DNA from: a gamma proteobacterium HIMB55
Lineage (GTDB): Bacteria; Pseudomonadota; Gammaproteobacteria; Pseudomonadales; Halieaceae
Length of the DNA: 64,000 nucleotides
Assembly: GCA_000227505.4 (NCBI GenBank)
Contig: AGIF02000001.1
Span: forward strand, 1,818,035 to 1,882,034
Direction of reading: 5' to 3'
Below the pieces are notes generated by a model. That model was given only the letters and a program-made list of their open reading frames with translations, did no database searches and was not told the origin of the DNA. Shown piece after piece: positions 46,236 to 57,715 of this stretch (the stretch's first letter is position 1; every line of letters begins with the position of its first letter). Made by a program: the position numbers and the translations under genes.

Positions 46236-46272
46236 AAATAGCGCCTCTCTTGCTTTTCAACGGCAATGGAAC

Positions 46273-46292
46273 TACTGTTTATTTATACAGTA
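46273..46292. promoter_or_regulatory. LexA (SOS) box upstream of imuA
   Basis: TACTGTTTATTTATACAGTA fits the gammaproteobacterial SOS consensus CTGT-N8-ACAG with the extended TA flanks and AT-rich centre. It lies 52 bp before the imuA ATG and also faces the divergent MFS gene. Confidence 0.93.
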
Positions 46293-46344
46293 TTTTTACT
46301 GGTGCTCTCTCGAGCAGCACCTTATCAACTTTGCGGAGCGCATC

Positions 46345-47085
46345 ATGAACCACTCCATAGAACAGATCATTAATCGTCCTGATACCTGGCAAGGTGTCGA
46401 TAACCACACAAACTCACGCGTTATCTTAACCACCAAGTCGGCCAATACAGATTGGCACAATCGACAGAGTGTACCAACGGGTTTCACTTCTCTCGACGAA
46501 GAATTACAGCTCGGCGGCTGGCCAAAGCATGGTGCCGTCGAAGTATTGAGCGATCACGATGGCGCTGAATGTATGGGACTGTTTCTACCAACCATGCAGC
46601 GACTCTCCAGCGAAAAGCGTTGGCAAGCATTTATCAATTCACCGCACACACCGTACGCACCGCTACTGCGCGCTCACAACATTCCCTCAGAACAAATACT
46701 GATGGTTCACCCTAAACATCGGGATGAAACCTTATGGGCGGCAGAGCAAGCTGTTCGCAGCACTACCTGTAGCACAGTATTTGTGTGGTTAGGGAGCACT
46801 CATTATCGGTACGCCGAGATACGCAAGCTACAACTTGCGGCGGCGAGTACCGACACCTTGCTTTTTCTTTTTAGATCGAGCGACGCACTGAAAGATGCCA
46901 CACCTGTTTCTCTCAGACTGCATATCAACGCTTATCGTGAAGTCACCGTCGTTAAACAGCGCGGCGGCAAGCGAGAAGTTGAAATACGGCTACCTGAAAG
47001 CCACCTGTTGAAAGTGCAGACAGCGCAATCTCACAACAAAGCTGTTGCTACGAAGACCGGTACATTCCTGACACCTGTCGCCTAA
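46345..47085 (+). CDS. imuA: ImuA, SOS mutasome accessory protein
   Basis: 246 residues with a RecA/SulA-like fold: VPTGFTSLDEELQLGGWPKHGAVEVL near the start is the ImuA signature (about residues 40-65), and SSDALKDATPVSLRLHI lies near the end. ImuA works with ImuB and DnaE2 in damage-induced mutagenesis, probably contacting RecA. GGAG is six bases before the ATG. Here imuA stands alone: imuB is 4.9 kb downstream rather than adjacent. Confidence 0.9.
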   Translation: MNHSIEQIINRPDTWQGVDNHTNSRVILTTKSANTDWHNRQSVPTGFTSLDEELQLGGWPKHGAVEVLSDHDGAECMGLFLPTMQRLSSEKRWQAFINSPHTPYAPLLRAHNIPSEQILMVHPKHRDETLWAAEQAVRSTTCSTVFVWLGSTHYRYAEIRKLQLAAASTDTLLFLFRSSDALKDATPVSLRLHINAYREVTVVKQRGGKREVEIRLPESHLLKVQTAQSHNKAVATKTGTFLTPVA

Positions 47086-47111
47086 TTTACTTCGGTGACT
47101 CGCTTCCCCTT

Positions 47112-47144
47112 CCCCGGGCTCGGTTCCCCTCCGAGCTTCCGGGG
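47112..47144. repeat. Strong GC-rich hairpin after imuA
   Basis: ccccgg (47112-47117) pairs with ccgggg (47139-47144), and inside it ctcgg (47119-47123) pairs with ccgag (47131-47135), around a 7-nt loop. No T run follows on either strand, so it is not a classical intrinsic terminator. It may stabilise the imuA mRNA 3' end or act with Rho. Confidence 0.6.
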
Positions 47145-47215
47145 CAACCTCGCTCTAGGAAATCATCGGTTCGAGGCAAACTGATTTACACATCAAAACA
47201 GTACACGTCTGCGAT

Positions 47216-47986
47216 ATGCTTAGTGGACACGTTAATGTCCGCCAGCCAATGCTCGACTTACCGATTAGTCTCGATATCCTGACCATTTTGGTCGTGACGA
47301 GTTTTATTGCATCACTGCTCACTGCATCAGTAGGGATTGGGGGTGGCACACTCGTTCTCGCAGTACTGGTTGTGACTGTCCCCATTACGGCCGTTGTGCC
47401 TCTGCACAGCGTTGTTCAACTCGGCTCGAATACCGGCAGGACGGTCATGACCCGACGCCATATTTCGAGGCAACTATTTTGGCCTCTGGTAATCGGTGCC
47501 ATTGCTGGAACCTTACTCGCAGCACCGCTGTCCGCATTCTGGCTCAACGAATTGCAATTAACGCTACTACTCGCAACCTTTACGCTCGTTGTGACTTGGG
47601 TCCCGATACCGGTAGTAAAAACACACAGCACACGTAACAACCTGCTGTTCAGTGTTGCGGTGAGCTTCATCGGGGTTTTTGTGAGCGCTACTGGCCCTCT
47701 GATAGCGGCCTTTCTTCGCCATCAGGCCCAAGACCGAAAAGAACTCGTCGCAACCATGGCAGCAAGCGTGTCGACGATGAACTTTCTCCGCATAGTCCTC
47801 TTCAGCAGCCTCGGATTTTTTTGGAGTGAGTGGCTTGTTCCACTCGCTTTGATGATTGCTGCTGGCTTTGGGGGAACACTCATCGGCCTGCAACTTCTCG
47901 GCAGGCTGCCGGAGAAGCTTTTTCAAACTCTACTTAAACTGCTTCTAACGGTACTCGCGCTATCGATGATTTTCCGCGCTCTTTGA
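47216..47986 (+). CDS. TauE/SafE-family membrane permease
   Basis: 256 residues, about eight hydrophobic helices in two repeats. The family glycine motif ASVGIGGGTLVLAVL occurs in the first repeat, and a related pattern (ATGPLIAAFLR) in the second. Members export or import sulfonates, sulfite or related organic anions; the substrate here is unknown. The start may be ATG 47216 or ATG 47249. It lies within the split mutasome region and has no evident link to it. Confidence 0.85.
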   Translation: MLSGHVNVRQPMLDLPISLDILTILVVTSFIASLLTASVGIGGGTLVLAVLVVTVPITAVVPLHSVVQLGSNTGRTVMTRRHISRQLFWPLVIGAIAGTLLAAPLSAFWLNELQLTLLLATFTLVVTWVPIPVVKTHSTRNNLLFSVAVSFIGVFVSATGPLIAAFLRHQAQDRKELVATMAASVSTMNFLRIVLFSSLGFFWSEWLVPLALMIAAGFGGTLIGLQLLGRLPEKLFQTLLKLLLTVLALSMIFRAL

Positions 47987-48065
47987 GCACGCAAGCTAAG
48001 CACGCTAGAAAAATCTCAACTTACCCAAAGTTCGCCTACCCCGAGCAGGACTGAGCTGAGCACCA

Positions 48066-49946
48066 CTACCCCTCTGCTAATTGTAAGGCCAACATCGCAT
48101 CGATGTTTTCTGCCAGCTTATTTAACGGCACCGGACCACTTCCCAGCACCGTGTCGTGGAATAGCCGAATATCGAATCGATCGCCCAAACGCTCTTTAGC
48201 CGCTTCGCGGAGCTCAACAATACGCAACTTCCCAATCATGTAAGCCGTCGCCTGACCCGGCATTGCGATATACCGCTCGATCGCTTTTATGCAGTCGTAT
48301 TCTGCATTCGGCGTATTCTCAACGAGATAGGCGATGGCCTCTTCGCGACTCCAACGCTTACTGTGGATGCCGGTATCCACTACTAGACGCGCCGCGCGCC
48401 AAAGCTCCATAGCAAGCTGCCCAAATCGCGAATACGGGTCCTCATAGAACCCCATCTCGTAGGCAAGCTGCTCCGTGTATAAGCCCCATCCTTCGGAGAA
48501 CGCGGTGAAACTTAGGTAACGCTGAATATCGGGCACACCTTCGAGCTCAGCCGTAATAGCTCGCTGGAGGTGATGCCCCGGCAAGCCCTCGTGAAATGCC
48601 AAGGCCTCTAGATCGGTTTTTGGCATCGCAGCCATATCATACAAATTGGCGTAAAAGATGCCCGGACGCGAACCATCCGGCGGAGGGCTCTGATAAAACG
48701 CTTTACCCGCATTCCGCTCACGGAACGGCTCGACACGTTTCACGATCAGCTCGGCTTTTGGTAGCACCCCGAAGTACTCGGGAAGTTTCTTCTCCATACG
48801 GGAGAGCGCATCACGTGCACTACTTAGGTACGCTTCTCGCCCCTCGTCCGTATTGGGAAAGCGCAGCGACTGATTCTCGCGAACAAACACGAAAAATTCT
48901 TGCAGGCTCCCCTCGAAACCGACCTGGCCCATGATCTCCCGCATTTGAGCGTGGATGCGCTCAATATTGTCGAGACCTAACTGGTGTACCTCGTCTGCAG
49001 TGAGGTCTGTCGTTGTAAACCACTGAAGCAATCGCTGATAGAACGCCTCGCCATCAGGGAGACGCCATACCCCGTCGTTGGGTGAGGCTGACTCACTCTG
49101 CTTCTCGATTACAGCAATGAAGCGCTGGTAAGCCGGCTTAAAGACATCGATAAGCGCTGTTCTGCCCGCGTTAACCAGCCGGGCAGTTTCATCTTCCGAC
49201 AAATCGAGCGTCGCCACTTTCTTTTGAAAATCCGCCCAAACCGGTGACACCGCATCTGAGCCGTCAAACGGCTGACCCGTGATGACATTGTTAGACGATT
49301 CAAGAATCGCCGGATACATCCAATCAACCAGATAAAGTCCTTTCTCGGCACGCACCTCGAGCTGCTCGATGACCTCTCCAAGGTAGCTCTCTACATTTTG
49401 GATGCGATCGATATAGGCCTCTGCGTCGCTTAAGTCCGATACGCGATGGATGTTGATGAGCGAGCTAGGAATTTGAGTATGTGCACCACGAAATTGATGA
49501 AGCGCATAGCGGTGGTGCCGAAATTCGTCCATCGCCAGCGATCGCTCCAATGACATCCGATAGAGATCGAGAGAGAGCTTTCCCGCATCAGGAAGCGCAG
49601 CTCGATTAAACTCAGCCAAGTCGATAAGGCCCTGCTCCATGCGAGCACGCTCCTCGTCATTAAACGCTTCGGACTGAGGGTTCCATTCACCGTGACGATC
49701 CTTGATGCCCAAGTAGCTGGAAGTGAAAGGTTGCCGCGATAGATTGTCGGCAAACACCTTGGCAAGGTAAGCATTCAATCGCTCATGTTCTGACATTGAG
49801 GCGTCTACCACCTCACCCGTAGCACTCTGCTCCGTCTGTGCAAAACCTGCCTTCGCTGTTGATTGCGTTGGCTCAGTATCGCCGCAGCCCATCAGCAAGC
49901 CACTGAAAACGCTACCAAGGATCAAAAGCAAAATATTTCGATTCAT
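48066..49946 (-). CDS. DUF885 family lipoprotein, predicted zinc peptidase
   Basis: 626 residues from ATG 49946, chosen because it gives a clean lipoprotein signal: LLMGC with Cys21. The body is the helical DUF885 domain. Probable metal and catalytic motifs are FHEGLPGHHLQ (an HExxxxH-type site) and SEGWGLYTEQLA, with DTGIHSKRWSREEA further on. DUF885 proteins are thought to be M32/M3-like metallopeptidases, here anchored at the cell envelope. Substrate unknown. Confidence 0.88.
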   Translation of the reverse strand: MNRNILLLILGSVFSGLLMGCGDTEPTQSTAKAGFAQTEQSATGEVVDASMSEHERLNAYLAKVFADNLSRQPFTSSYLGIKDRHGEWNPQSEAFNDEERARMEQGLIDLAEFNRAALPDAGKLSLDLYRMSLERSLAMDEFRHHRYALHQFRGAHTQIPSSLINIHRVSDLSDAEAYIDRIQNVESYLGEVIEQLEVRAEKGLYLVDWMYPAILESSNNVITGQPFDGSDAVSPVWADFQKKVATLDLSEDETARLVNAGRTALIDVFKPAYQRFIAVIEKQSESASPNDGVWRLPDGEAFYQRLLQWFTTTDLTADEVHQLGLDNIERIHAQMREIMGQVGFEGSLQEFFVFVRENQSLRFPNTDEGREAYLSSARDALSRMEKKLPEYFGVLPKAELIVKRVEPFRERNAGKAFYQSPPPDGSRPGIFYANLYDMAAMPKTDLEALAFHEGLPGHHLQRAITAELEGVPDIQRYLSFTAFSEGWGLYTEQLAYEMGFYEDPYSRFGQLAMELWRAARLVVDTGIHSKRWSREEAIAYLVENTPNAEYDCIKAIERYIAMPGQATAYMIGKLRIVELREAAKERLGDRFDIRLFHDTVLGSGPVPLNKLAENIDAMLALQLAEG

Positions 49947-50077
49947 CACAATACCCACACACGAAAAATGAAAGCGCGATGATAGCTCAGTTACTACAGC
50001 AAGTCGGAGCACCGTTTGTGCTTGCCTGAACAAGGTCCGAACCTTAAGGTCTACTCACGAGTAGTGGAGAATAAATT

Positions 50078-51601
50078 GTGTCGAAGGGACCCATACCAAC
50101 CGATGCGCAAATGCATCTCGATCAGACTAAGGCTGAGACGCTTGATGGTACTCGCACGCGCGCAACCGAAAAGCGACACAGCAAAGGGTACCGAACGGCG
50201 CGGGAAAATTTGCAGGACCTCGTCGATGACAATAGCTTCATTGAATACGGTCAGCTAGCTGTTGCTGCCCAACGCGATCGTCGAGACCCATCTACGCTTC
50301 GTGTTGATACCGCAGCAGATGGCGTCATTACCGGCACAGCGACAATCAACGCTGCACTTTGTCCAAATAAGCGTACTGACGTGGCTGTCGCTATCTACGA
50401 CTACAGCGTGCTCGCCGGAACCCAAGGCTTTTTTCACCACCAAAAGCTTGACCGTATCTTTGAGATCGCTGAGCGAGAGCGACTGCCGTTTGTCATGTAC
50501 ACCGAAGGTGGTGGCGGACGCCCCGGTGATACCGACGTCAAGGTAAACATCGCTGGTCTCAATAGCACTTCTTTTAGTCGCTGGGCGGGACTCACCGGCA
50601 AGGTACCCCGCATTACGGTGAATAATGGCTACTGCTTTGCAGGTAATGCAGCGCTCTTTGGTGCGGGTGATGTTCGCATTGCGACAAAGAGTTCATCGAT
50701 TGGTATGGCAGGACCCGCCATGATTGAAGGTGGCGGACTCGGCGTCTTCCACCCTGATGAAATCGGCCCCGTTAACACGCTCTGTAACGTCGGCGCCGTC
50801 GATCTGCTTGCAGAAGACGAGGCGCACGCAACCGCACTCGCCAAATGGGCCTTAAGCTACACACAGGGAAACACCTCCCCCGGTACTGTGGCTGATCAAA
50901 CCGCCCTCAGGGCTTGTCTACCTGAGAATCGACGGATGGCTTACGACGTTCGGAAAGTCATGGAGATCCTATTCGATCAACAGTCAGTGCTTGAACTTCG
51001 TCCGGTCTACGGCCGTGCTGTGGTGACTGCATTTGCGCGTATTGAAGGTCACCCCGTCGCTGTTATCGCCAGCGACTGCCGGCATCTAGGTGGAGCCATT
51101 GACGTTGACGCTGCGCGTAAAGCAGGTGAAATGATGGAGTTGGCGAAGCGCTGGCAGTTGCCGATTGTATCTCTCGTTGATACCCCCGGATTTATGGTTG
51201 GCCCGGAAAGCGAGGCCATGGGCGCCGCAAAGGTTATGCCTGAACTCTTCAACACGGCTGCCGGCGTCACAACACCGTGGGTGGGCCTTTTCCTACGACG
51301 CGGCTATGGCCTGGGAGCGATGGCGCTTGTTGGTGGCTCATTTGAATTCCCAACGCTCACGGCGAGCTGGCCACAAGGTGAGTTCGGCGGCATGGGCCTT
51401 GAAGGCGCTGTTCGACTTGGCTTCAAGAAGGAACTCGAAGCAACACCCGCCGGCGAAGCCCGCGATGCGCTGTATGAAAAGCTGGTCGCGGAGATGTATC
51501 AAAAAGGTCGCGCCACGGAAGCGGCGGCGTATCTTGAAATCGATATGGTCATAGACCCAGCAGAAAGTCGTGCAGTGATTTTGCGAGGCTTAGGTTTATA
51601 G
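50078..51601 (+). CDS. Acyl-CoA carboxylase carboxyltransferase subunit
   Basis: 507 residues of the crotonase-fold carboxyltransferase family (PCC/MCC/GCD beta-like). Visible are the N-terminal half (RTARENLQDLVDD, AVAIYDYSVLAGTQGFFHHQKLDRI in part, GGGGRPGD) and the C-terminal half (LVDTPGFMVGPESE, RRGYGLGAMALVGGS, PQGEFGGMGLEGAVRLG). It moves carboxyl from biotin to an acyl-CoA. No biotin carboxylase gene is adjacent, so the partner and acyl substrate are unknown. GTG start with GGAG upstream. Its stop codon lies in the first unit of the downstream 15-bp repeat. Confidence 0.88.
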   Translation: MSKGPIPTDAQMHLDQTKAETLDGTRTRATEKRHSKGYRTARENLQDLVDDNSFIEYGQLAVAAQRDRRDPSTLRVDTAADGVITGTATINAALCPNKRTDVAVAIYDYSVLAGTQGFFHHQKLDRIFEIAERERLPFVMYTEGGGGRPGDTDVKVNIAGLNSTSFSRWAGLTGKVPRITVNNGYCFAGNAALFGAGDVRIATKSSSIGMAGPAMIEGGGLGVFHPDEIGPVNTLCNVGAVDLLAEDEAHATALAKWALSYTQGNTSPGTVADQTALRACLPENRRMAYDVRKVMEILFDQQSVLELRPVYGRAVVTAFARIEGHPVAVIASDCRHLGGAIDVDAARKAGEMMELAKRWQLPIVSLVDTPGFMVGPESEAMGAAKVMPELFNTAAGVTTPWVGLFLRRGYGLGAMALVGGSFEFPTLTASWPQGEFGGMGLEGAVRLGFKKELEATPAGEARDALYEKLVAEMYQKGRATEAAAYLEIDMVIDPAESRAVILRGLGL

Positions 51602-51794
51602 ATTCTGGGTTTATAGATTCTGGGTTTATAGATTCTGGGTTTATAGATTCTGGGTTTATAGATTCTGGGTTTATAAGCTCTGGGTGTATAGAGCCTAGGC
51701 TTGCAAGGCACTGATTTTTTGAACATGGATTTGAAAAATCTTGGCTTGTAAGACCTCTGTGTTTGAGACCTCAGCGTAAAGACCTTGTTTCTTA
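51586..51794. repeat. 15-bp minisatellite array after the carboxylase gene
   Basis: Five perfect copies of gattctgggtttata fill 51601-51675. They are followed by degenerate copies (agctctgggtgtata 51676-51690, gagcctaggcttgca 51691-51705) and, after a gap, further decayed 14-15 bp units up to 51794 (for example gacctctgtgtttga at 51752-51766). The end of the coding sequence (ttaggtttata, to 51600) looks like a partial copy, so the array probably arose by expansion of the gene's 3' end. Each unit carries an in-frame TAG. This accounts for most of the 367-bp gene-free stretch from 51602 to 51968. Confidence 0.95.
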
Positions 51795-51934
51795 GCTCGC
51801 CGTTTGCGGCGCTTTCATTCTCAATGCCTACGCGTGTTTTCAATGCCTTTGCGCGCAAGAGATGAGCAAAGCCTCAATTCGCACAAAATACCCATAAATG
51901 TGAAACCGCACTTGTCCAAAGCAGCTCATCATAA

Positions 51935-51954
51935 TACTGTATAAATAAACAGTA
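51935..51954. promoter_or_regulatory. LexA (SOS) box upstream of imuB
   Basis: TACTGTATAAATAAACAGTA, a perfect CTGT-N8-ACAG palindrome with TA flanks. It ends 14 bp before the imuB start, so LexA would overlap the promoter and the ribosome-binding region. Confidence 0.95.
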
Positions 51955-51968
51955 TTATGATGACTTAA

Positions 51969-53411
51969 GTGCTCTGGCTTTGCTTACACTTTCCAAAACT
52001 CCCTCTTGAAGCATTGGCCTCCAAGCCTGTGTGTAATGACGATATTTTGCGTGTTGTCATTGAAAGACAACGAGCCGTTACCTGCGACGATGAGGTTGAG
52101 GCGCTCGGTGTAACACCGGGACTGAAACAATCCACCGTGAGCGGCTTACTCAGCGGTCACCCGCTCAAACTTCTATCCAGAGAGCCTGAGGAAGAACTTA
52201 AAGTGCTCAAGCGCCTTCGGCAGTGGGCCTATTCAATCACTCCTACCCTTACGTTATGGCGAGATGACTGTCTTCAGCTAGAAATCGGTCGCTGCTTGTT
52301 AGTCCACGGTGGCTTAGAGCGCTTAATCGAAAAGATCACCGCCGAACTCGACCGGCGCGGCTTTACGACACATATTGGAATCGGCCCGAGCCAGGAAAGC
52401 GCCTGGCTGTTCAGTCAAACCAGCCATGCCGCTAAAACATCGCAACTCGATGATGGCGCATCGTTGGAAACCCGACTGAGCTCGATCGCCCTCCACCGAC
52501 TTGATGGGTTTGATAAAGATGTCTCTGCACTCAACAAAGCTGGAATTCATCGCTTCGGCGAACTCTTCGCACTTCCCCCAGAAAGCCTAAAGCGGCGCTG
52601 CAGTCAGGCGTTCTGTAACTGGATAGACCGACTACTGTGCCGGGTCGAAGTTGCCGTAGAAGACTTCCACCCAGAACCTGAGTACAGCGATATTGCTTGG
52701 CTGGGCTACGGGTCTACAAACAATCAGGAACTCATCTACCCCATGGAGCAATTACTCCAGGACTTCTCGCAGTTTCTGAGAAATACTCAACTGCAAACAC
52801 AGCATATACGCTGGGACTTCATTGCAACCCAGGGTAAAAGCCCCGAGCTACACGTCCACAGTAGTGAGTTCCATAACGACCCAACGCGTTGGTTAGAACA
52901 ATCACGCCTTAAATTAGAGCGGCTTCAGTTCGACGATCTCATTGAGGGTATTTCACTCACTGCCTGCGAACTCAGCTTGGCACAACTCACAACGCAAGAC
53001 CTGTTTCTCGAGTCGAAACATCAGGAGCCTTTATCGCAACTCATTGACCGTCTTCGTAGCCGATTGGGATTTCAGGCGGTGTCACACGTTTATGAACGCG
53101 CAGAGCATTTACCGGAGCACTGCTCATTTGTGGACGCCAATCAACTCAACGCACCGACAGCCAAGGAAAAAAATCTGCGTCGCCCCTTTTGGCTACTCGA
53201 GTCACCGCAACCCATTAGCCAGCGAGGAAACCAACTGTATTGGCTAGATGCGCTGGAGATTATCAGTGGACCTGAGCGCCTCGAGGACTGCTGGTGGAGC
53301 CAACCCACAAGTCGAGATTATTACATTGCAAAAACAGGTGCCGGCCAACCGGTCTGGATATTCCAAGACCGACACAATCGCTGCTGGTTCCTACAAGGAA
53401 TCTTCGAATAA
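51969..53411 (+). CDS. imuB: ImuB, catalytically dead Y-family polymerase homologue
   Basis: 480 residues. It has the Y-family polymerase layout without the metal-binding acidic residues: the N-terminus reads LWLCLHFPKLPLEAL, and the SIDE-type motif is replaced by IGRCLLVHGGLERL (107-119). ImuB is the scaffold that joins DnaE2 to the beta clamp; QDLFL at 343-347 is a candidate clamp-binding peptide. The start is GTG 51969. In most genomes it follows imuA directly; here it has its own LexA box and no partner beside it. Confidence 0.92.
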   Translation: MLWLCLHFPKLPLEALASKPVCNDDILRVVIERQRAVTCDDEVEALGVTPGLKQSTVSGLLSGHPLKLLSREPEEELKVLKRLRQWAYSITPTLTLWRDDCLQLEIGRCLLVHGGLERLIEKITAELDRRGFTTHIGIGPSQESAWLFSQTSHAAKTSQLDDGASLETRLSSIALHRLDGFDKDVSALNKAGIHRFGELFALPPESLKRRCSQAFCNWIDRLLCRVEVAVEDFHPEPEYSDIAWLGYGSTNNQELIYPMEQLLQDFSQFLRNTQLQTQHIRWDFIATQGKSPELHVHSSEFHNDPTRWLEQSRLKLERLQFDDLIEGISLTACELSLAQLTTQDLFLESKHQEPLSQLIDRLRSRLGFQAVSHVYERAEHLPEHCSFVDANQLNAPTAKEKNLRRPFWLLESPQPISQRGNQLYWLDALEIISGPERLEDCWWSQPTSRDYYIAKTGAGQPVWIFQDRHNRCWFLQGIFE

Positions 53412-53546
53412 TGCAATGTTTCACTAATGTGACTCTTTTATTTCACAAATATTTCAGTTAAGTTACAAAGCTAGTAACAAATATGTGTGGAGAAACCACG
53501 CAACGCTGTGAAGCGATAGCACGCCGTGAGGCGTAAGGAGACCAGA

Positions 53547-53903
53547 ATGAAAACGATGAAGAACTTAGCAATAAGCCTCTGCGTTTTAGGAGGCATGTAT
53601 ACCTCAGGAGCATCCGCTGAGGTTGTCCAAGACTGCGTACTGAGCGGTGAAGTGGTCAGTGTAAATCAGCAGTCCTCTGAAAAGATGCGCGTCCGATTCC
53701 ACAAGATGGAGCACGGCGAGCTTGCAAACTGTAATTTAAAAGGCCGAGCAAAACGCGGTCGAGTCGATGCAGATATTACGATGGAAGGCCTTGAGCTACC
53801 TAAAGGCTCGAAGGTTACCTATGCCTTCCAGCAGACACGGTCAGAAGCCAATTGGCAGCTGCTCAGTGTTCAGCGCCCTGTTTTGCTGACGTCAAAAGAC
53901 TAA
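53547..53903 (+). CDS. Small secreted protein of unknown function
   Basis: 118 residues from ATG 53547, chosen because AAGGAG lies upstream. The N-terminus is a clear Sec signal peptide with cleavage after SGASA (about residue 24). The mature part has two cysteines (DC and NC) that could form a disulfide, and a basic centre (KGRAKRGRVDAD). I recognise no family. It lies between imuB and the lipocalin, with its own terminator. Confidence 0.75.
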   Translation: MKTMKNLAISLCVLGGMYTSGASAEVVQDCVLSGEVVSVNQQSSEKMRVRFHKMEHGELANCNLKGRAKRGRVDADITMEGLELPKGSKVTYAFQQTRSEANWQLLSVQRPVLLTSKD

Positions 53904-53922
53904 GTCGCAAACAATCATTACG

Positions 53923-53956
53923 GCGCCACCTGGACTTTCTCCATGTGGCGCTTTTT
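53923..53956 (+). terminator. Intrinsic terminator after the small secreted protein
   Basis: gcgccac (53923-53929) pairs with gtggcgc (53945-53951), with an inner tgg/cca extension, followed by five T residues at 53952-53956. Confidence 0.85.
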
Positions 53957-54008
53957 ATTGCCTGATCCCCAGAGCCTATTGTTACAGTGATGGCATATCA
54001 TTCATGCA

Positions 54009-54524
54009 TCACTGGCCTGTCGCTGGCCAAATCAACTCAGACGTATCGAATCCCAGTTGATTGCTTTTCGCCAAAAATGCCTCTCGCACCGACTCACTTA
54101 CCTCGAGCTCGCGAGATAACAACCATAGGTAATCGGTGTTATAGCCAGCGACAAACGCGTAGCTGTAGTCCTCGGCCAGTTCAAAGACCGCGTAGGTCCC
54201 ATAAAACGGACCAAAAAATGACACCTTCAAGTGAGCAATGTCTTCGGCCCCCATCGGCTTAGCAACGCCCTCCGCTTGACGCCATTCACCCTTCTCCGTG
54301 TTAAACCCTTTGTTCAACACCGAAATCGACCCATCCTCATTCGCCGCATAGGTCGCGGTCACACGCTCGAGATTGCGCTCGAAACTGTGGTCTAAGCGTG
54401 CGATTTCGTGCCAAGTCCCCAGGTAGCGCTCGGAGTCAAAGCCGCTAACGGGCGTTACGCCATCGGGTAGGCCAGTACAGGCGCTGAGGAAGAAAAGCGA
54501 TAACACGCCAAGTCGCTTGAGCAT
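54009..54524 (-). CDS. blc: Bacterial lipocalin, Blc-type outer-membrane lipoprotein
   Basis: 171 residues from ATG 54524, which has an AGGAGGT site just upstream; the longer frame to 54575 is ignored. The lipobox LSAC gives lipid-modified Cys16. The lipocalin motifs are in order: RYLGTWHEIARLDHSFE (GxW), VTATYAANEDGSISVLN, FFGPFYGTYAVFEL and YLWLLSRE. Blc-type lipocalins bind lipids or lysophospholipids during stress. It is divergent from dnaE2, with the LexA box between. Confidence 0.92.
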   Translation of the reverse strand: MLKRLGVLSLFFLSACTGLPDGVTPVSGFDSERYLGTWHEIARLDHSFERNLERVTATYAANEDGSISVLNKGFNTEKGEWRQAEGVAKPMGAEDIAHLKVSFFGPFYGTYAVFELAEDYSYAFVAGYNTDYLWLLSRELEVSESVREAFLAKSNQLGFDTSELIWPATGQ

Positions 54525-54606
54525 GTGATGACCTCCTTTTGGTAAATCACTGACAGAGTATGAACGACTACTCATAGTGATGTGAGGATTATTTCAAAAA
54601 GCTCTA

Positions 54607-54626
54607 TACTGTATAAAAATACAGTA
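54607..54626. promoter_or_regulatory. LexA (SOS) box upstream of dnaE2
   Basis: TACTGTATAAAAATACAGTA, a perfect palindromic SOS box ending 8 bp before the dnaE2 ATG. It lies 82 bp upstream of the divergent lipocalin start. Confidence 0.95.
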
Positions 54627-54634
54627 TTTTTAAG

Positions 54635-57600
54635 ATGTCATACGCTGAACTTCACTGCTTAAGCAATTACAGCTTCTTACGGGGAGCTTCGCACCCCCAC
54701 GAGCTCGTGGAGCAAGCGGCGCACCTTGGTTATTCAGCACTCGCCATTACCGATGAATGCTCGCTGGCTGGTGTCGTCAAAGCGCACGTGACGGCCAAAG
54801 AACTCAACTTCAAACTCATTATTGGCAGCGAATTCACAATCAGCGAGGGCTTAAAGCTCGTTGCCATCGCGCCCTCACGGGCGGCCTACGGCGAACTGTC
54901 TAGCCTGATCAGTCGCTCTAGACGGCGCAGTGAAAAAGGTCAGTACCTCACCCACCTAAGAGACATCTACTTCCACTTAAAACGCTGTTTCATTATTTGG
55001 CTACCCGACGATATTGCTACAGAGCGCCATCATGCGGAGGCGCTTGCGCGGCGTTGCCCGGATCGATTTTGGATTGGCATCCATCAGCTCTTAAGCCATG
55101 ACGACTTATTGAGACTCGAAGAGATACAAACACTGGCGGATAAAATGAACGTTCCAACACTCGCTTGCGGCAGCGTTGAAATGCATTCAGCGAGCCGAAA
55201 AATGCTGCACGATGTCGTCACCGCAATACGCCACAACACAGCGATACAGGACTTAGGTCCGTTACGACTGCCAAATAGTCAGCAGCACCTAAGGCGGCTC
55301 GACAAACTCATCCCGCTCTATCCTCAGGCGCTTATAGGCGAAACGCTGCGTTTGGCTCAACGCTGTAACTTCAGCCTTGACGAACTACGCTACGAATATC
55401 CCGAGGAAGTTGTACCTAAGGGCCACACTGCAAATAGTTATTTACGTGACTGCGTATCGCAGGGAGCGTCCAAGCGCTGGCCACAGGGAGTCCCTTCCGC
55501 TATTCACGAGCGCATAGAGCGCGAACTTGCCCTCATTACCGAGCTTAATTACGAGTACTACTTTCTAACGGTATACGACATTGTCAATTTCGCGCGCACG
55601 CGAGGCATCTTGTGTCAGGGACGAGGATCAGCAGCCAACTCGGTTGTTTGTTACTGCCTGCACATTACCGAGGTCTCACCTGAGCAGGTCTCCTTACTCT
55701 TTGAGCGCTTTATCTCTCGTGAGCGTGATGAACCACCCGATATCGACGTTGATTTTGAGCACGAGCGCCGCGAAGAAGTCATTCAATATATTTATCAAAA
55801 GTATACGCGCCGCCGAGCTGCACTTGCCGCGACGGTCATTACCTATCGTTCTCGAAGTGCAGTCCGTGACGTTGGTAAAGCACTAGGCATGGATGCGGTC
55901 TTCGTCGAAGACTTAGCAAAATCCCTCGCCTGGTGGAATCGTGAGCGCGAGCTAACCGCCAAGTTTAAAGAGCAAGGTATACAAGCTAGCAGTCAACAGG
56001 CAGATATCTTCCTGCGCATGACACAGCAAATTCTGGGATTCCCTCGACACTTATCTCAGCACGTTGGCGGATTTGTTATCAGCCGTGGCCCGATCTCAAA
56101 CTTAGTGCCAGTGGAAAATGCCAGTATGCCCGATCGGACTGTTATTCAGTGGGACAAAGAGGACATCGAATCACTAGGGTTGCTGAAGGTAGATATCTTA
56201 GCGCTGGGGATGCTCTCAGCCATCAAGAAATCGCTAGCGCTCGTCCAGCGAAAAAATCCGGCCATCACACGGATTCAAGATATACCTAACGACGATCAGG
56301 CAACGTTTAGGATGCTTCAGACAGGCGACTCATTGGGCGTCTTCCAAATCGAATCGCGCGCTCAAATGTCGATGCTGCCAAGACTAAAGCCCAAATGCTT
56401 TTACGATCTCGTCATCGAAATCGCTATTGTCCGGCCAGGTCCGATCCAAGGCGATATGGTGCACCCCTACCTCCGCAGACGCGCAGGGCTAGAACCGATC
56501 ACCTATCCAGATCCTGCTATCCAATCGGTATTAGAAAGCACCCTTGGTGTGCCTATCTTTCAGGAGCAGGTGATTCGACTCGCAATGGTTGCAGCAGGCT
56601 TCAGCGGTGGAGAAGCTGATTCGCTTCGCCGCGCCATCACAAACTGGGGACGTAACAGTAAGCTACTGACCTTTGAACACAAGTTGAAAGCAGGCATGTT
56701 GAAACGGGGTTATAGCCCCGAGTTTGCCGATCAGCTATTTAGTCAAATCAAAGGTTTTGGTGGCTATGGATTTCCTGAGTCACACTCGGCAAGTTTTGCC
56801 TTACTAGCCTACGTCTCAGCGTGGCTGAAACGTCACTACTCCGGCGCCTTTTACGTTGGTCTACTGAACAGTCAGCCCATGGGCTTTTACACGCCCTCAC
56901 AGCTCGTCCAGGATGCTGATCGACATGGCGTTAAGAGTTTACCCGTCGACGTTAATGCCAGCGACTGGGACCACCGCTTGATCGACGGCGGCCCGCAGCA
57001 AAGAGATGTGATACAGCTCGGCTTGAGGTTAGTAAAAGGACTCACTAAACGCGGCGCAGAGCAACTTATCGACGCACGTCGCAGTGGTCAGTTTGTCTCT
57101 ATTCTGGATGTGAAACGACGCGCGAAACTCGACAAGGACGATCTAGAGGCGCTCTCCGCGGCTGATGCGTTACGAGCGCTTACAGGCAATCGGCACCAAA
57201 CGCATTGGGCGATTATGGCGGTTAAAGATTCACGCCCTTTACTGCCAGAAACCCATGTCTATGACCACGATGACGCTAGCGCGATTACAGCACCATCAAC
57301 CACAGAGAGCGTTATCTTTGATTATCAGAGCACAGGCCTAACTCTACGCTCGCACCCGCTAGCATTGCTTCGTCAGCAAAAGCCCTTCAGTCAGTGTCGT
57401 AAACAAACAGAGCTGATCAATATGGGAAGTCAGCGTTTTGTTCGCACCGCGGGATTGGTTACCTGCAGACAGCGTCCAGGCACTGCCTCAGGTGTCGTCT
57501 TCCTAACGCTCGAAGACGAGACCGGCAACATAAACGTCGTCGTGTGGCCAAAAATTCAAGAGCGCTTTAGAGCAGCTCTGATGACCGCACAACTGCTCCT

Positions 57601-57715
57601 AGTCAAAGGTACCGTAGAGTCACGAGATGGCGTCACACACGTTATTGCTAGCGGACTATATGACCACAGCAGTGCGCTAAGCGAGCTTGCGGTTAAATCG
57701 CGAGACTTCCATTAA
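54635..57715 (+). CDS. dnaE2: Error-prone DNA polymerase DnaE2 (ImuC)
   Basis: 1026 residues, the usual size for DnaE2 rather than DnaE1 (about 1160). An N-terminal PHP domain (YAELHCLSNYSFLRGAS) is followed by a C-family palm with catalytic aspartates in PPDIDVDFEHERR (about residues 367-379). FGGYGFPESHSASFALLAYVSAWLK is the conserved C-family helix region (cited in part), and an OB domain (TAGLVTCRQRPGTASG) lies near the end. It replaces Pol III at lesions when SOS is induced, with ImuA and ImuB. Confidence 0.96.
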   Translation: MSYAELHCLSNYSFLRGASHPHELVEQAAHLGYSALAITDECSLAGVVKAHVTAKELNFKLIIGSEFTISEGLKLVAIAPSRAAYGELSSLISRSRRRSEKGQYLTHLRDIYFHLKRCFIIWLPDDIATERHHAEALARRCPDRFWIGIHQLLSHDDLLRLEEIQTLADKMNVPTLACGSVEMHSASRKMLHDVVTAIRHNTAIQDLGPLRLPNSQQHLRRLDKLIPLYPQALIGETLRLAQRCNFSLDELRYEYPEEVVPKGHTANSYLRDCVSQGASKRWPQGVPSAIHERIERELALITELNYEYYFLTVYDIVNFARTRGILCQGRGSAANSVVCYCLHITEVSPEQVSLLFERFISRERDEPPDIDVDFEHERREEVIQYIYQKYTRRRAALAATVITYRSRSAVRDVGKALGMDAVFVEDLAKSLAWWNRERELTAKFKEQGIQASSQQADIFLRMTQQILGFPRHLSQHVGGFVISRGPISNLVPVENASMPDRTVIQWDKEDIESLGLLKVDILALGMLSAIKKSLALVQRKNPAITRIQDIPNDDQATFRMLQTGDSLGVFQIESRAQMSMLPRLKPKCFYDLVIEIAIVRPGPIQGDMVHPYLRRRAGLEPITYPDPAIQSVLESTLGVPIFQEQVIRLAMVAAGFSGGEADSLRRAITNWGRNSKLLTFEHKLKAGMLKRGYSPEFADQLFSQIKGFGGYGFPESHSASFALLAYVSAWLKRHYSGAFYVGLLNSQPMGFYTPSQLVQDADRHGVKSLPVDVNASDWDHRLIDGGPQQRDVIQLGLRLVKGLTKRGAEQLIDARRSGQFVSILDVKRRAKLDKDDLEALSAADALRALTGNRHQTHWAIMAVKDSRPLLPETHVYDHDDASAITAPSTTESVIFDYQSTGLTLRSHPLALLRQQKPFSQCRKQTELINMGSQRFVRTAGLVTCRQRPGTASGVVFLTLEDETGNINVVVWPKIQERFRAALMTAQLLLVKGTVESRDGVTHVIASGLYDHSSALSELAVKSRDFH

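Follow-up and report, generated by a model that had tools for sequence, protein, structure and literature searches.

In the window, the whole 64,000-nucleotide stretch of DNA from the gammaproteobacterium HIMB55 that we analysed, the genes for the mutasome proteins ImuA, ImuB, and DnaE2 lie as three separate pieces, with gaps of 4.9 and 1.2 kb and with order and strand kept. Gene calls, profile scores, and coordinates agree on this layout, which had been proposed in a sequence-only reading. The features of the locus are as follows.

46250-46255, forward strand: -35-like TTGCTT, 17 bp before the TACTGT of box 1, read by eye
46273-46292: LexA box 1 (imuA), TACTGTTTATTTATACAGTA, matching TACTGTN8ACAGTA at 12 of 12 positions
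46345-47085, forward strand: imuA, NCBIfam NF033429 (ImuA), 201 bits, cut-off 150
47216-47986, forward strand: intervening TauE/SafE permease gene (Pfam)
48066-50033, reverse strand: intervening gene for a DUF885 protein (Pfam)
50078-51601, forward strand: intervening carboxyl transferase gene (Pfam)
51912-51917, forward strand: -35-like TTGTCC, 17 bp before the TACTGT of box 2, read by eye
51926-51963: 38-bp inverted repeat of box 2 and 9-nt complementary arms, perfect except for the box centre
51935-51954: LexA box 2 (imuB), TACTGTATAAATAAACAGTA, exact reverse complement of box 1, 12 of 12 positions
51969-53411, forward strand: imuB, GTG start, no Shine-Dalgarno motif, similar to ImuBs of the family
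53526-53903, forward strand: intervening gene for a small protein that reads like a secreted one, no Pfam match
54009-54575, reverse strand: intervening Blc-type lipocalin gene, divergent from dnaE2 (Pfam and NCBIfam)
54607-54626: LexA box 3 (dnaE2), TACTGTATAAAAATACAGTA, matching TACTGTN8ACAGTA at 12 of 12 positions
54635-57715, forward strand: dnaE2 (imuC), error-prone polymerase, no Shine-Dalgarno motif, NCBIfam PRK05672, 1386 bits, cut-off 939

The identities of imuA and dnaE2 are secure, as the profile scores correspond to a RecA/SulA-like ImuA and a DnaE2-type C-family polymerase. The imuB of the window matched no Pfam model itself but resembles ImuBs in 133 of 140 genomes of the family, with 59-93% identity within its subclade and about 40% to other Luminiphilus, and both of its two tested relatives matched the IMS (Y-polymerase) domain. 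The lipocalin scored 207 bits against NCBIfam Blc, below the cut-off of 267, and its true start is probably near 54524. In many relatives, an OsmC gene occupies the place of the TauE/SafE permease. The genome contains one imuA, one imuB, and one DnaE2, the sole other DnaE2 match being 31% identical and taken as the replicative DnaE1. A second intact imuA-imuB-dnaE2 operon, on whose absence the initial reading had depended, was not found in this genome.

LexA boxes accompany genes that lead their own unit

As first read, each gene has its own near-identical palindromic box, with two central bases distinguishing box 3 from box 2, and the distances from box to start are indeed 52 bp (imuA), 14 bp (imuB), and 8 bp (dnaE2). 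Allowing up to two mismatches to TACTGTN8ACAGTA, the window holds four matches, three of them exact, versus 1.09 expected by chance. Exact matches number three in the whole genome (2.74 Mb), all at imuA, imuB, and dnaE2; up to two mismatches gave 54 matches, and among the matches listed none had a single mismatch. The reversed-pattern control produced 1 exact match genome-wide and, at the same tolerance of two mismatches, 120 in all. The genome has its own LexA gene, and the same motif, weaker, precedes lexA and recA (three mismatches, counted by hand, and two of 12, respectively). Operators of the CTGT-N8-ACAG type, as in the LexA regulon, lie upstream of all three genes, each deviating at two central positions from the E. 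coli-type 20-bp consensus. With its gaps and three boxes, the locus is not the contiguous imuABC operon with one promoter.

To follow the boxes across the genus, we picked from 57 Luminiphilus genomes the 35 loci with all three genes on one contig. Three boxes, each with at most one mismatch, were present in all 35, so that each separated piece has a box, as had been proposed. Gap counts left out loci with genes on different contigs, and the genomes G113, G162, and G164, with their foreign-looking compact cassettes, were kept out of the pair test. Among the loci scored, imuB had its own box in 53 of the 54 loci where it lies apart from imuA and in 1 of the 25 where the two are adjacent (hand count; Fisher 5e-18, with relatedness ignored). 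The exceptions are a separated imuB without a box (G116) and a nearly adjacent one, at 252 bp, with a box (G140). The 11 compact outgroup cassettes showed no box before imuB or dnaE2. As a rule, a gene at the head of its own unit carries a LexA box. A duplication of box regions between genes, which the sequence-only reading had suggested looking for, found no support: judged by eye, the sequences flanking the boxes are unlike one another.

An integron integrase gene precedes dnaE2 in other Halieaceae

We scored the stretch upstream of dnaE2 in 66 of the 83 non-Luminiphilus family genomes, 3 of the others having a foreign cassette and 14 no usable upstream stretch. An intact intI was found upstream of dnaE2 on the same strand in 21 of the 66 (hand count), and a remnant in 12; in 1 more, a C-terminal fragment lies where the contig ends. 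The other 32 showed none, and several of these offer less than 2.5 kb upstream (for example, 697 nt in G079); the stretch is cut at 267 nt in G149 and at 980 nt in G129. In G131, no box was seen within 3.75 kb, but its dnaE2 match begins at residue 228.

The usual arrangement is box-intI-dnaE2 with attC sites adjoining, and the spacing between intI and dnaE2 was 2-20 nt in 13 of the 20 genomes measured. Two of the IntI proteins matched TIGR02249 with 411 and 428 bits (cut-off 265), while the other IntI proteins were assigned by similarity to these two. Two home-made attC patterns, which had no positive control, missed real sites that a repeat search and reading showed. The attC model matched at E<=1.3e-5 in 13 loci outside its training set, always on the dnaE2 strand, as compared to a best E of 0.058 on 37 control loci. 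No attC was found in 8 of the 20 intact-intI loci searched, all with less than 2 kb upstream of dnaE2. Judged by integrase class and predicted attC sites, these are chromosomal integrons. In ten further genomes (G105, G107, G165, G089, G090, G111, G112, G116, G154, and G087), we did not call the gaps integrons because they contain no attC at E<=0.1; some of them resemble cassette arrays. The position of the integron between imuB and dnaE2 can be seen in only 2 genomes with an intact intI and 4 with remnants, since in the others the contig with dnaE2 does not include imuB.

The window itself contains no intI at E<=1e-3, its best attC match has an E of 2.8, and the Luminiphilus loci show no trace of either element. 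This absence would also fit a history in which Luminiphilus never had the integron, its dnaE2 box going back to an older box of the gene itself and the integron entering only other Halieaceae. In g31 and g32, genera that branch early, dnaE2 has a box and no intI was seen, and in g32, as in Luminiphilus, a lipocalin gene fills the gap. However, intI is found in many crown genera and in g36, the genus adjoining Luminiphilus in the tree (2 of 4 genomes, one of the two with attC), and G088 clusters with g36 in the trees of IntI and of DnaE2 alike, although the branching is not identical. IntI and DnaE2 distances agree modestly (Mantel r 0.34, 41 of 5000 permutations); thus, some integrases may have been exchanged. 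We give the history without an integron a real but lesser chance. Because neither intI nor attC left a trace in the window or the Luminiphilus loci, its loss is argued from the relatives, and Luminiphilus most likely lost it.

Box quality points to a probable joint rather than staggered induction

The TACTGT of box 1 would serve as a -10 element together with the -35-like TTGCTT, and TTGTCC might be the promoter -35 upstream of box 2. By eye, and uncounted, a similar TTG hexamer precedes many imuA boxes of the family. We also examined the box flanks for complementary arms, counting identical flank rows once. The imuB boxes are embedded in longer palindromes with covarying arms. Extended arms of the dnaE2 box passed the genus-wide test and failed the paired-change test (6 versus 3.9 shuffled, 375 of 2000). 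The imuA box flanks showed no arm excess in Luminiphilus or the outgroups; in other Halieaceae, the excess was 1.57 versus 0.40 (0 of 5000), mainly from G078, G084, and G087, and the paired test gave a small excess (7 versus 2.2, 11 of 2000).

In the 35 Luminiphilus loci, a Shine-Dalgarno motif precedes imuA in all, and imuB and dnaE2 in none. The motif is missing in 15 of 16 outgroup loci for dnaE2 and likewise in 15 of 16 for imuA, where the starts are uncertain. An intI-coupled past as the reason why dnaE2 has no motif is a weak idea, because the outgroup dnaE2 genes have none either. A read-through lock, with a hairpin masking the start codon in upstream-initiated transcripts alone, found no support: for imuB, the accessibility of the start region was 0.40 and, with the flanks shuffled, 0.43, and the corresponding values for dnaE2 were 0.45 and 0.48.

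The initial reading had taken the small differences between the boxes as support for different timing: three promoters would have evolved so that scaffold, accessory protein, and polymerase are made at different times following damage. Three promoters are likely, the leaders differ in length, and only imuA is preceded by a Shine-Dalgarno motif. This difference, however, concerns protein yield and not order. Moreover, the boxes in the window are all perfect matches, and across Luminiphilus the mean mismatches to the consensus hardly differ between genes (imuA, 2.26; imuB, 1.63; dnaE2, 1.83); thus, LexA should leave all three at similar damage levels. We consider staggering unlikely, and the argument from the box differences did not hold. 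Because the three boxes match equally well and outrank every other LexA site in the genome, including those of recA and lexA, induction is instead predicted to be tight, late, and joint.

The split was probably inherited from an ancestor of the family

An ancestral operon that was later opened, as originally proposed, agrees with the outgroups from other families of the order, where all three genes are contiguous in 11 of 17 genomes and imuA and imuB are adjacent in 15 of the 16 loci holding both. The comparison with relatives thus bore out a compact ancestral operon but not a local split: the split is neither recent nor local and was inherited from the family ancestor. The dnaE2 gene would have quit the operon first, early in the family: it is already apart in g31 and g32, and even a genus that branches early has a lipocalin gene between imuB and dnaE2. 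The lipocalin cluster was found in the imuB-dnaE2 gaps of 40 loci. The imuA and imuB genes would have parted later, through OsmC/DUF885-type genes. The tree leaves out the orphan imuA copies of G113, G162, and G164, and G162 is absent from it.

That the lineage never had an operon, three separate SOS genes having come close together, could be argued from relatives in which as much as about 52 kb separates dnaE2 from imuB (G153), from independent splits in other families (G051, G056, G062, and G076), and from dnaE2 being on the other strand in the outgroup G056. Against this, the shared-contig Halieaceae rows compared by eye retain the arrangement imuA-imuB-dnaE2 in both order and strand, and the adjacency of imuA and imuB in the outgroups makes such an origin very improbable. 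Decay into silent copies, which had been named as fatal to the initial reading and might be suspected from the strong divergence of imuB between Luminiphilus subclades, is scarcely credible given the conserved boxes and a dN/dS of 0.01-0.15 in 19 of 21 gene pairs (the 19 computable), and imuA, imuB, and dnaE2 are under purifying selection.

Discussion

Together, these data make it probable that the locus encodes the single ImuA-ImuB-DnaE2 translesion mutasome of a Luminiphilus-type member of the Halieaceae in three LexA-repressed units, with an inherited layout from which the integron has most likely been lost. LexA would bind at each box, and its inactivation by DNA damage would release all three genes together. 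In those relatives where the chromosomal integron stands just before dnaE2, the integrase gene would be part of a LexA box-intI-dnaE2 unit. We see an even chance that in part of the Halieaceae one LexA promoter drives intI and dnaE2 as an operon, so that damage would set off both cassette shuffling and point mutagenesis at once; DnaE2 might even take part in the replicative step needed to complete attC recombination, and what Luminiphilus has now, a mutasome with three boxes, would be a streamlined remnant left when the integron was deleted.

Separate promoters for mutasome genes are known, and the Halieaceae offer a graded natural series of two- and three-piece layouts, completed by the compact cassettes of other families and with a LexA box as a rule where a gene leads its unit. 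The series lets one ask how co-regulation survives the break-up of an operon. With intI ahead of dnaE2, point mutation and cassette shuffling, both of them SOS-driven ways to generate genetic novelty, would be coupled within a single transcription unit. Our literature search found no paper on an intI-dnaE2 operon, and the link can be tested in culturable marine bacteria.

The LexA-controlled imuA-imuB-imuC(dnaE2) cassette of Pseudomonas putida and Caulobacter, as described in the available part of PMC3901139, shares with our locus the three proteins and the LexA control, but forms one transcription unit, whereas here there are three with unrelated genes between them. In mycobacteria, the same part reports imuA'-imuB at one locus and dnaE2 at another, both LexA-controlled (PMC3901139). 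The pieces are thus apart under LexA in both cases, with two pieces and ImuA' there and three pieces and ImuA here. LexA-controlled chromosomal integrons have been described (Cambray 2011, PMC3108266), and the terms dnaE and operon are absent from the available portion of that text. An intI with a LexA box and attC sites occurs in the relatives of the window only, and in the Halieaceae the integrase gene is followed by dnaE2 at the short spacing given above. Last, a three-way split with separate SOS boxes has already been published (PMC3901139), which is in principle the same configuration; in the excerpt available, it is mentioned with no species named, while here it is described for a whole genus, together with its neighbour genes and its history.

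The mutasome boxes in the HIMB55 genome

The sequence-only reading had described a split mutasome whose three genes each follow a near-identical LexA box, and the positions of all genes and boxes were borne out on re-examination.

46273, box 1; 46345-47085, imuA
51935, box 2; 51969-53411, imuB
54607, box 3; 54635-57715, dnaE2 (imuC)

Family models and similarity identified the products as ImuA, ImuB, and DnaE2, and boxes 1 and 2 are exact reverse complements of each other. The genome, a single contig of 2.74 Mb, has one copy of each gene and no second imuA-imuB-dnaE2 operon. We found that the exact core, TACTGTN8ACAGTA, occurs at three sites genome-wide, all at imuA, imuB, and dnaE2; 54 sites lie within two mismatches of it, and none of the matches listed for this genome had a single mismatch. 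Because exact matches occur only at the mutasome genes, while the boxes of recA (CACTGATTATATATACAGTA) and lexA (TACTGTACATTTATACATGC) are weaker, the strongest predicted LexA sites of the genome are thus those of the mutasome. In Luminiphilus, the window's genus (name inferred), recA boxes are also weaker than mutasome boxes and keep an imperfect CTGA half-site in 15 of 15 loci (L279, L289-L310).

A separated gene usually carries its own box

We scanned 100 fetched loci together with the window. The 35 Luminiphilus loci, including the window, came from 57 genomes of the genus and were chosen for having the three genes on one contig. All 35 retained the gene order and strand and had boxes before imuA, imuB, and dnaE2 with at most one of 12 positions off. 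Among outgroups, imuA and imuB were adjacent in 15 of the 16 loci holding both; none of these 15 had an imuB box, and 14 had an imuA box with up to two mismatches (exception, genome G052). All three genes were contiguous in 11 outgroup loci, none with a dnaE2 box. By hand count over all loci with both genes, a box preceded imuB in 53 of the 54 where it was separated from imuA versus 1 of 25 where it was adjacent (Fisher test, 5e-18, uncorrected for relatedness). The exceptions were G116, with a separated imuB that lacks a box and appears to have a longer frame, and G140, where a box is present despite a gap of 252 bp. Independent splits in other families are consistent with this pattern: the separated dnaE2 of G051, G056, and G062 has a box with two, zero, and zero mismatches, respectively, and the separated imuB of G076 has one with a single mismatch, in the core.

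Three Halieaceae genomes (G113, G162, and G164) carry a foreign-looking, more distant compact cassette and, elsewhere, an orphan imuA of the native type that retains a LexA box (L252, L248, and L250). In another, G168 (L256), imuA was present, while imuB and DnaE2 were unmatched at the thresholds used. The imuB frames of genus g42 (G114-G117, e.g., L222) span 600 to 790 amino acids versus the usual 480 or so, perhaps owing to an N-terminal extension occupying the imuA-imuB gap.

History of the split

In a tree of concatenated proteins (79 rows, no printed support values), genera g31 and g32 branch off first among the native Halieaceae sequences. Here, imuB adjoins imuA and lacks a box (three loci), and dnaE2 already lies apart with its own box. 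An OsmC gene (assigned by Pfam on one member) lies within the imuA-imuB gap in loci of eight genera (Luminiphilus, g36, g38, g39, g40, g49, g52, and g55), several of which also have a DUF885 gene before imuB. In the window's subclade (12 loci), this gap holds TauE/SafE and carboxyl transferase genes, with DUF885 in 10 of the 12. A minus-strand lipocalin gene separates imuB from dnaE2 in 40 loci, namely, all 35 of Luminiphilus, G084 (g32), G089, G090, G107, and G165. The intervening genes thus vary by subclade, but the opening of the operon is old.

In many Luminiphilus loci (e.g., L193 and L200), OsmC after imuA places an oxidative-stress gene beside an SOS gene; in some genomes, imuA is followed by a KatG-like (catalase-peroxidase) gene, labeled from sequence alone. 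A tandem repeat (15-bp unit, 6.7 copies, 51593-51692) spans the 3′ end of the carboxyl transferase gene and extends into the region upstream of imuB.

Expression signals and palindromes around the boxes

All three genes are under purifying selection, and we infer that they are jointly SOS induced. Because a TTG-type −35-like hexamer, read by eye, lies 17 bp before TACTGT at imuA and imuB of the window, the first half of these boxes would act as the predicted −10. A Shine-Dalgarno motif precedes imuA in 35 of 35 Luminiphilus loci and neither imuB nor dnaE2 in any (0/35 each); the distance from box to start is 10 to 16 nt for imuB and 6 to 15 nt for dnaE2. The respective counts for imuA, imuB, and dnaE2 are 25/33, 12/29, and 0/27 in other Halieaceae and 1/16, 3/17, and 1/16 in outgroups, where starts are uncertain.

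The imuB boxes sit inside longer palindromes whose arms covary between species (window, 51926-51963, 9-nt arms). In Luminiphilus (32 distinct of 35), the mean perfect imuB arm beyond the box was 5.75 nt versus 1.61 nt after permuting arms among genomes (0 of 5000); in other Halieaceae, it was 3.16 versus 1.13 (0 of 5000). Double compensating changes numbered 23 versus 3.9 after shuffling (26 independent pairs, 0 of 2000). The dnaE2 arms exceeded the swapped control in Luminiphilus (3.65 versus 1.74, 0 of 5000) and other Halieaceae (5 of 5000), without a significant excess of compensating changes (375 of 2000). For imuA, arms were longer than the control in other Halieaceae (0 of 5000), with no excess for Luminiphilus (944 of 5000) and none for the outgroups (1556 of 5000). 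The recA-box arms showed none in Luminiphilus (363 of 5000); those of HIMB55 are 7 nt long. Pairing of the imuB arms may have arisen from template-switch mutation or from selection on DNA structure. A read-through lock as the cause of the arms found no support on testing.

An integron integrase upstream of dnaE2 in other Halieaceae

In a few genomes, dnaE2 had no close box, and the gene directly upstream was the integron integrase gene intI, preceded by a LexA box. Two of the proteins scored 411 and 428 bits against TIGR02249 (cutoff, 265). Scoring covered 66 of 83 non-Luminiphilus family genomes, including additionally fetched upstream stretches: 21 had an intact, co-oriented intI upstream of dnaE2 (448 nt away in G151), 12 had remnants, G149 had a C-terminal fragment where its contig stops, and none was seen in 32. 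Among the 21 intact loci, the LexA box lay solely before intI in 13, solely between intI and dnaE2 in 5, and at both places in 2, while 1 ended at the contig end. The intI stop lies 2 to 20 nt ahead of the dnaE2 start in 13 of 20 genomes measured, and because the junction is so tight, dnaE2 may be translated behind intI there; a past coupling of this kind is a weak candidate explanation for the missing Shine-Dalgarno motif of Luminiphilus dnaE2. IntI dN/dS was 0.04 to 0.21 (five pairs), and IntI and DnaE2 distances correlated modestly (Mantel r 0.34, 41 of 5000).

The recombination sites (attC) upstream of intI were first recognized by reading the sequence. A covariance model built from 11 sites was run over 43 loci. 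Its matches at E 1.3e-5 or better outside the training set came from 13 loci, of which 10 have an intact intI and 3 have remnants; every one lies on the same strand as dnaE2. At E ≤ 0.1, 8 of the 20 intact-intI loci searched (2 of the 20 from the training set) gave no match, each having <2 kb upstream of dnaE2. A position of the integron between imuB and dnaE2 is visible in six genomes, those where the two genes share a contig, all with the same gene order and strand: G097 (28.5 kb) and G143 (35.6 kb) with intact intI and G094, G104, G109, and G155 with remnants.

In the 35 Luminiphilus loci, we found neither intI nor visible remnants in the gaps. With the attC model, the window gave no convincing match (best E 2.8), and neither did 34 Luminiphilus loci and three early-branching ones (best E 0.058). 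Because g36, the neighbor genus in the tree, has intI in two of four genomes, we favor, without taking it as proven, loss of the integron in Luminiphilus.

Outside Halieaceae, Marinobacter salarius (L148, 3425-13108) has a second integron-mutasome neighborhood, in which intI immediately precedes a compact cassette (LexA box-imuA-imuB-dnaE2) and has an attC-like site before it (E 2.6e-4).

Comparison with known systems

Among the papers listed in a literature search that paired integrons with Halieaceae, imuB, dnaE2, or attC, none reported an intI-dnaE2 operon in its title or the beginning of its abstract, a coverage that mostly excludes subscription literature. SOS control of integron integrases is the subject of PMC3108266, in whose main text dnaE, polymerase, operon, KT71, and HTCC2080 do not occur. 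DnaE2 modules are treated in PMC12926913, with the integron link absent from the available passages. The split layout itself has precedent: according to PMC3901139, nearly every arrangement of the genes occurs, among them one in which all three lie at separate loci, each behind an SOS box.
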